Shown here one piece after another: positions 50,328 to 52,090 of a stretch of 64,000 nucleotides of DNA. Location: assembly GCA_029567325.1 (NCBI GenBank), contig JAKQLF010000177.1, positions 1 to 64,000 on the forward strand, read 5' to 3'. Made by a program: the position numbers and the translations under genes. The DNA comes from Bacteroidota bacterium. Its GTDB lineage: Bacteria; Bacteroidota; Bacteroidia; Chitinophagales; Saprospiraceae. Each line of letters begins with the position of its first letter. Within the stretch, counting starts at the first letter, position 1. The notes beneath the pieces are model-generated. The model saw only the letters and a program-made list of their open reading frames with translations, ran no database searches and was not told where the DNA came from.

Positions 50328-50338
50328 AAAATTAAAAA

Positions 50339-50371
50339 AGCCTTGATTTCTTTTTACAAGATATCAAGGCT
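50339..50371 (-). terminator. Terminator of the ribosomal supercluster, downstream of rplQ
   Basis: AGCCTTGAT ... ATCAAGGCT, with a T-rich run on the minus-strand 3' side (CTTTTTTAATTTTTT). Confidence 0.85.
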
Positions 50372-50399: not shown

Positions 50400-50912
50400 T
50401 TATTCTTCTTCCTCAGCTGCTGATTCTGTTGCAACAACTGTTCCTGCTGTGGCAGCTGCTGCTACAGCTCCTGCTGCCGCACCACCTTTACCTCTTTTTC
50501 TTCTTCTACTCTTAGATGCTGTTTCAGTAACACCACCTTTTGGAGCGTAAACTTCATTATAATCTACTAGCTCAATCATTGCTGTTTCAGCAGCATCACC
50601 AAATCTAGTTCCTGTTTTGATGATTCTCAGATATCCTCCTGGTCTGTCAGCAATCTTTGGACCAATTGTATCAAACAATTCAGTAACCGCTTCCTTGTTC
50701 ATCAACATAGAGAAAACTATCCTACGACTGTGCTGAGCATTGTCTTTAGATTTTGTCAAAATTGGCTCCAAAAACAATCTGAGTGCTTTTGCTTTAGCCA
50801 AAGTTGTATTGATTCTTTTGTGCGTAATCAACGCAATCGAAAGGTTTCTAAGCAATGCTGCTCTATGACCTTTTTGTCTACCTAAGTGGTTAAACTTTTT
50901 TCCGTGTCTCAT
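50400..50912 (-). CDS. rplQ: 50S ribosomal protein L17 with Ala/Glu-rich C-terminal extension
   Basis: [34 protein letters not shown]. Confidence 0.97.
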
Positions 50913-50941
50913 TTGACTTTAAAAAATATGTTTCACGCAAG

Positions 50942-51019
50942 CGGAAAAGGACTACGACCTCAGCCCTATATTTTCCGACCGGTTAAAACGATTAATGATA
51001 AATCCTATCGAGGTCGAGT
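50942..51019 (-). promoter_or_regulatory. Pseudoknot-capable structured element in the rpoA-rplQ spacer
   Basis: Minus-strand RNA: ACUCGACCUC ... CGGAAAA uaua GGGCU GAGGUCGU AGUCC UUUUCCG; apical-loop GAGGUCG is fully complementary to upstream CGACCUC. Confidence 0.6.
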
Positions 51020-51029
51020 GATTTGTTTT

Positions 51030-52028
51030 TTATTCTTCGTCAAGCTTGTATTTAGAAAGATCCATTCCAAAAGTCAACCCTTTATTGACTAATAGTTCTT
51101 CAATTTCTACAAGTGATTTTTTACCAAAGTTTCTGAATTTCAATAACTCATGAGTATCAAATTTTACCAATTCGCCCAAAGTATTGATTTTAGCAGCTTT
51201 CAAACAGTTGTAAGCTCTTACCGATAAGTCCAAATCCTCAAGAGAGGTTTTGAGTAACTTTCTCATATGTAAGATATGCTCATCTACTACATTTTCTTCT
51301 CTGCTTGTTGAATCATTGAATGTGATATTTTCATCAGTAATCAACATCAAATGCTGAATCAAGATCCTTGAAGCCTCTTTGATAGCCTCTTCTGGATGGA
51401 TAGTTCCATCAGTTTTGATATCAATTGAAAGTTTCTCGTAGTCAGTTCTCTGTTCTACTCTTGTACTTTCTACTTTATAAGCAACCTTCTTGATTGGTGT
51501 ATAGATTGCATCAATTGGAATAACGCCAATTGGAGCATCTTTAGGAAGATTTTCATCAGCTGGAACATAACCTCTACCTTTAGTAACGGTTAATTCAAGT
51601 TCCAAACCTACAGAAGCATCCAAAGAGCAAATATGTAAATCAGGATTCATTACCTTAAACATATTGTTATATGTTTCAATATCGCCGGCAACAAATTCAG
51701 ATTTTCCTGAAATAGTTAGATAAATTTTATCTTCTCCACCTTCGTGATCAGTCAACAAAGGCTTTAATCTTACTTGTTTAAGATTCAAAATTATATCAAC
51801 AACATCTTCTACAACACCTTTGATTGTAGCAAACTCATGATCAACACCACCAATACGTACAGCTGATATAGCATAACCTTCAAGTGATGATAATAAAATT
51901 CTTCTTAACGAGTTTCCAATAGTCTGCCCAAATCCTGGTTCCAATGGTTTGAATTCGAATAATCCTTCGAAGTCATCTGCCTTTTGTAACCTAATTTTAT
52001 CGGGCTTTATGAAGTTGAGTAGCGCCAT
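51030..52028 (-). CDS. rpoA: DNA-directed RNA polymerase subunit alpha
   Basis: [31 protein letters not shown]-terminal [23 protein letters not shown] alpha-CTD. Confidence 0.98.
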
Positions 52029-52063: not shown

Positions 52064-52090
52064 ACTGCTCTACACCAAGTGTAAAGCAGT
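52064..52090 (-). terminator. Intra-operon terminator/attenuator-like hairpin between rpsD and rpoA
   Basis: + strand ACTGCT c TACAC caa GTGTA a AGCAGT; minus-strand stem followed by TTTTTC. Confidence 0.6.

Follow-up and report, generated by a model that had tools for sequence, protein, structure and literature searches.

A conserved pseudoknotted RNA in the rpoA-rplQ spacer of Saprospiraceae is a candidate leader of ribosomal protein L17

Control of bL17, whose gene rplQ is the last of the alpha operon, is poorly known outside the published cases. An L17 leader is listed in Actinobacteria and Proteobacteria, S4 leaders are described upstream of rpsD in Bacteroidia and Flavobacteria, and for published leaders the sole downstream ribosomal protein is taken as the ligand (Eckert and Weinberg 2020, PMC7247131). 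S4 is a repressor of bL17 in E. coli, where a second regulatory site before rplQ was proposed in 1984 and never proven (PMC10931766). Here, we describe an RNA element that fills the spacer between rpoA and rplQ in a Saprospiraceae genome. Like the published L17 leader, for which L17 is the proposed ligand and rplQ the sole regulated gene, it is a structured RNA found directly upstream of rplQ only; the published leader belongs to other phyla, and the comparison with it covers phylum, position and proposed ligand. It resembles the E. coli alpha-operon S4 leader in being pseudoknotted, in belonging to the same operon and in its presumed control of ribosomal protein translation. However, the S4-bound leader precedes rpsM, whereas the present element lies between rpoA and rplQ and consists of a core stem with a pseudoknot joining a loop to an upstream strand; no similarity between the two was found (Rfam negative). 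The S4 leaders of Bacteroidia and Flavobacteria share its phylum and operon, but are hairpins regulating rpsD-rpoA-rplQ. The L17 downstream element L17DE (RF01708) is also an RNA linked to the L17 gene, but is located 3' of rplQ in Firmicutes. An earlier note on this DNA knew of no described pseudoknot at this position. The spacer gave no match above the gathering threshold in Rfam 15, to L17DE or any other family, and no relevant match below it, and the open-access papers searched contained no account of an rplQ leader in Saprospiraceae.

The window analyzed is a 64,000-nucleotide stretch of contig JAKQLF010000177.1, in which the closest relatives of rpoA are from Saprospiraceae. The element and rplQ are encoded on the same strand, and the rpoA-rplQ spacer is 117 nt long (Table 1). 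Downstream, rplQ is the sole gene before a terminator-like hairpin, which was seen in the sequence and went unreported by a terminator scan with a loop limit of 8. This hairpin and its U run suggest that rplQ is the last gene of its transcript, and L17 would therefore be the only protein that the element could control directly. Further upstream, rpsD precedes rpoA, and the scan reported a strong terminator-like hairpin with a U run between these two genes (window 52064-52090, minus strand). Similar rpsD-rpoA hairpins with U runs occur in six relatives (L068, L072, L073, L074, L078 and L084), which suggests that attenuation may separate the ribosomal protein genes from rpoA at this point.

Table 1. 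Positions, in window numbering, of the element, its parts and the adjoining genes
Feature	Position	Strand	Basis or remark
Whole element, covariance model R1 match	50927..51021	-	E 1.4e-6, single match in 5.8-Mb genome
Pseudoknot 5' strand a, CUCGACCUC	51010..51018	-	sequence and covariation
Pseudoknot 3' strand a', GAGGUCG in apical loop	50955..50961	-	sequence and covariation
Core stem 5' arm, GUUUUAAC	50982..50989	-	bulged A at 50984; U-G wobble 50985/50934
Core stem 3' arm, CGUGAAAC	50930..50937	-	ends 17 nt 5' of rplQ AUG
Inner helix P3 5' arm, CGGAAAA	50971..50977	-	pairs with 50948-50942; predicted in MFE fold
Inner helix P3 3' arm, UUUUCCG	50942..50948	-	sequence; predicted in MFE fold
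Apical hairpin P4, GGGCU-[GAGGUCGU]-AGUCC	50949..50966	-	sequence; pairing kept in close relatives
rpoA (RNA polymerase alpha), 5' of element	51030..52028	-	stop codon 51032-51030; NF003516 and TIGR02027 above cut-off
rplQ (ribosomal protein bL17)	50400..50912	-	AUG at 50912; TIGR00059 above cut-off
Terminator-like hairpin and U run 3' of rplQ, GCCUUGAU...AUCAAGGC-UUUUUU	50334..50370	-	sequence

The earlier note had read the spacer as a hairpin with a loop able to pair with a strand further 5', in the order A-B-A'-B', and its coordinates were confirmed. The loop segment GAGGUCG pairs perfectly with CGACCUC in strand a, 32 nt separate strand a from the hairpin, and 29 nt (about 30 in the note) separate the hairpin from the AUG. 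The 8-nt loop GAGGUCGU (50961-50954) is closed by the P4 arms GGGCU (50966-50962) and AGUCC (50953-50949), whose letters differ yet pair in two relatives, as GUGCU/AGCAC in L039 and AAGCU/AGCUU in L055 (alignment A1). The note had left open whether the segments form an H-type pseudoknot or two mutually exclusive folds. The a/a', core, P3 and P4 helices are mutually compatible, and covariation is seen in both a/a' and the core, so that exclusive folds are not needed. The note had missed the outer core stem (50989-50982 with 50937-50930), within which the hairpin lies and which shows the strongest conservation of any part of the element. Strand a begins 11 nt past the rpoA stop codon in the window and about 4-6 nt past it in most sequences of genera g1 and g49; in the closest genera, it would be covered by a ribosome terminating on rpoA, and in other genera its distance to the stop is about 20 nt or greater. 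Taken alone, the window sequence makes a weak case, since the fold is not unusually stable (z-score -0.69) and the loop match has a p of about 0.05 against a loop-shuffle control. The fold score is what could be expected if the complementarity had arisen by chance in an AT-rich spacer, and the comparison with relatives bears on this reading.

We located rplQ in 98 of 101 relatives and in 374 of 399 family members, and took spacers from about 200 genomes. The spacer sequence diverges fast, and two features recur in it, the core stem and the pseudoknot. The pseudoknot was examined in 31 spacers picked by eye for the upstream motif, with the position of the loop hexamer set by a sequence-only alignment; the full complement of the hexamer, allowing at most one G-U pair, was present upstream in 28 of these, against 2.16 expected. 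More than ten different complementary hexamers were involved, including UCGACC/GGUCGA, CUGGCC/GGCCAG, UCAACC/GGUUGA, CUGACC/GGUCAG, AUGGCU/AGCCAU, CCAGCC/GGCUGG, GCGACC/GGUCGC and ACGACC/GGUCGU. A small hairpin ending in GGAU usually follows strand a. When RNAalifold was applied to the sequence-only alignment A2, it predicted the a/a' helix unprompted and no other, with five of six pairs doubly changed. In alignment A5, re-cropped because some rows of A1 and parts of A2 had strand a shifted by one base, 93.5% of the pseudoknot cells are paired, and double changes occur at six of seven pairs, the seventh being invariant; the pair counts of A3, whose upstream register had been picked for complementarity, agree. 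The covariation score of A5 was 0.459, compared with 0.216 +/- 0.019 for shuffled alignments, a simple control that kinship among the sequences inflates, and 0.045-0.109 for slid partners. Because GACC/GGUC is common to many genera, it weakened a test in which strands were swapped between them, and shuffled-strand tests were used instead: over 48 spacers with enough sequence, de-duplicated but not chosen for a pseudoknot, the match of loop to upstream sequence exceeded the shuffled controls with a conservative Fisher p of 8.5e-7.

A covariance model was built from A5 without the pseudoknot pairs. In the organism's own 5.8-Mb genome, its one match was the element. Across 200 Saprospiraceae genomes it returned 26 matches, 22 with E<0.01, and all 22 lay directly 5' of rplQ; three matches away from rplQ had E values of 0.047-0.087, the level expected by chance. 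Over 200 genomes of the phylum, no significant match was found outside Saprospiraceae. Nine of the matches were aligned, none of them from the A5 training set; at the positions fixed by the model, five pair at 7/7 and one at 6/7, and strand a was misplaced or missed by the model in the other three (L305, L309 and L310). By inspection, L305 and L310 have a perfect complement elsewhere upstream (ACGGCU/AGCCGU and UAUUGGC/GCCAAUA, respectively), while L309, which has the same spacer as L209, shows UUGGCA against the loop GGCCAA, with UAUUGGC/GCCAAUA as its best free helix. Kinship as the explanation of the covariation is countered by the many genera and distinct pair types involved, by the slid-partner scores and by these held-out sequences. 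Almost all pairs show compensatory change, in many genera and against controls; this covariation refutes chance complementarity, to which we give practically no credence. On this comparative evidence, the predicted pseudoknot is real and kept by compensatory change, the opposite of the outcome (no compensatory substitutions, or an unconserved spacer) by which the earlier note would have been refuted, and its proposal of a candidate rplQ regulator at this position is strongly supported. When the same genome and 100 relatives were searched at the DNA level for further copies of the spacer, only the element itself and short, low-significance matches came up, and a mobile repeat was therefore rejected.

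The core stem covaries as well, with the consensus GYRNUAAC...GUGNYRC, often followed by GAAG or GAUG. Its first four pairs vary freely with pairing kept (types at pair 4: AU 32, UA 18, GC 12, CG 3); they are followed by a U-G wobble, usually a bulged A, an A-U pair and often a C-G pair. In a scoring scan of 100 non-redundant spacers from Saprospiraceae, 80 contained the core. Its threshold was passed by 2.1% of dinucleotide shuffles, a fair control because the scan demands four paired positions, and by three of the 60 spacers taken from other families. When the segment was folded by a standard method, the core closed in 61 of 63 cases. Among the core pairs, G-U occurs 11 times and A-C never, in addition to the conserved U-G, which indicates that the structure forms on the mRNA strand. 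The 3' arm stops 14-41 nt short of the start codon in 65 high-scoring examples (median about 19 nt), and the end of the element is thus predicted to be near enough to the rplQ start to hinder ribosome loading. The core is present in many genera where the pseudoknot is absent or unclear. Judged by its distribution, the core is the conserved centre of the putative element, which the pseudoknot decorates in a subset of genera. Some genera have rpoA-rplQ spacers too short to hold the element (for example L062, L168 and L218), which shows that it is not essential.

A covariation-backed structure placed consistently 5' of a ribosomal protein gene is what is seen in ribosomal protein leaders, and we consider it reasonably probable that the spacer RNA is a new, lineage-specific leader controlling L17, with bL17 as its likeliest ligand. 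bL17 is favoured because rplQ is the sole gene downstream and by the published ligand rule (PMC7247131). In the proposed mechanism, the spacer RNA would act in cis as a structured leader of rplQ and regulate L17 translation from the polycistronic alpha-operon mRNA. The recognition centre would be the stem with the conserved U-G wobble and bulged A (UAAC/GUG), closing about 15-30 nt 5' of the rplQ start codon, and the loop of the inner hairpin would pair with the strand soon past the rpoA stop to form the pseudoknot. Excess bL17 may bind and stabilize the core beside the start codon, blocking ribosome loading, and the pseudoknot probably stabilizes the bound fold.

The effector could instead be ribosomal protein S4, with the element serving as a second S4 operator that places rplQ under S4 control. 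The repression of bL17 by S4 in E. coli and the second S4 site proposed there before rplQ (PMC10931766) would fit this reading, as would the S4 leaders known before rpsD in other Bacteroidota (PMC7247131), given that the rpsK-rpsD gap in the window is only 21 nt and no S4 leader fits there. However, no positive evidence was obtained for S4, one of the readers suggested in the earlier note, no Rfam family matched the element, and with rplQ as the sole downstream gene the ligand rule points to bL17; we therefore regard S4 control as unlikely, and less likely than control by bL17.

A switch that needs no ligand was also considered, in which a ribosome reaching the end of rpoA would cover strand a or open it and free the rplQ start, tying L17 to alpha by translational coupling. 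Strand a is close to the rpoA stop in the nearest relatives, within reach of a terminating ribosome, but its greater distance in other genera, and the retention of the core and conserved bulge without a visible pseudoknot, which looks like a protein site, make such a switch improbable. The two inputs might be combined in a new class of ribosomal protein leader, so that free bL17 would act through the bulged core and rpoA translation through the terminating ribosome, which would melt the pseudoknot strand; we hold this to be quite unlikely. An mRNA processing or stability element, such as a site of RNase cleavage or an attenuator separating the two genes, would fit AUAUUUUUU, which follows the core stem in the window. 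This U run is not conserved in relatives, the scan reported no intrinsic terminator or attenuator in the rpoA-rplQ spacer of the window, and the conservation of positions that are unpaired or in wobble pairs, together with the constant spacing to the AUG, better suits translational control, so that a processing role seems very unlikely. The preferred reading remains a leader that responds to bL17.

The same site is occupied differently elsewhere in the phylum. Spacers of the Chitinophagaceae/Sphingobacteriaceae type (L090-L147, L243 and L250-L254) carry another element, stem-A-AUUCC-...-ACGG-U-stem, in 50 of 66. Its flanking 5-bp stem covaries, with a mean of 4.79 of 5 pairs formed compared with 3.12 after exchange of arms between sequences, and the element appears to be a second rplQ leader specific to a lineage. 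Two sequences from another family of the class (L257 and L258) have short spacers with the hairpins ACUUCAU-AUUUUGC...GCAAG-AUGAAGU and CUUUCAU-AUUUUGC...GCAAG-AUGAGAG, whose outer stems differ in sequence with pairing kept, possibly a third leader type. One record labelled as a Deltaproteobacteria MAG (L142) has an rpoA 61% identical to that of the window and a Bacteroidota-like rplQ spacing, and is possibly misassigned.

The element is a precisely delimited RNA that a large family of bacteria has conserved; its two helices and its probable recognition core have been located, and related Bacteroidota families carry a different element at the same rpoA-rplQ site. Autoregulation by L17, or control by S4, can now be tested with simple compensatory mutants. 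If the element did combine two inputs, L17 would be balanced against ribosome assembly as well as RNA polymerase alpha.
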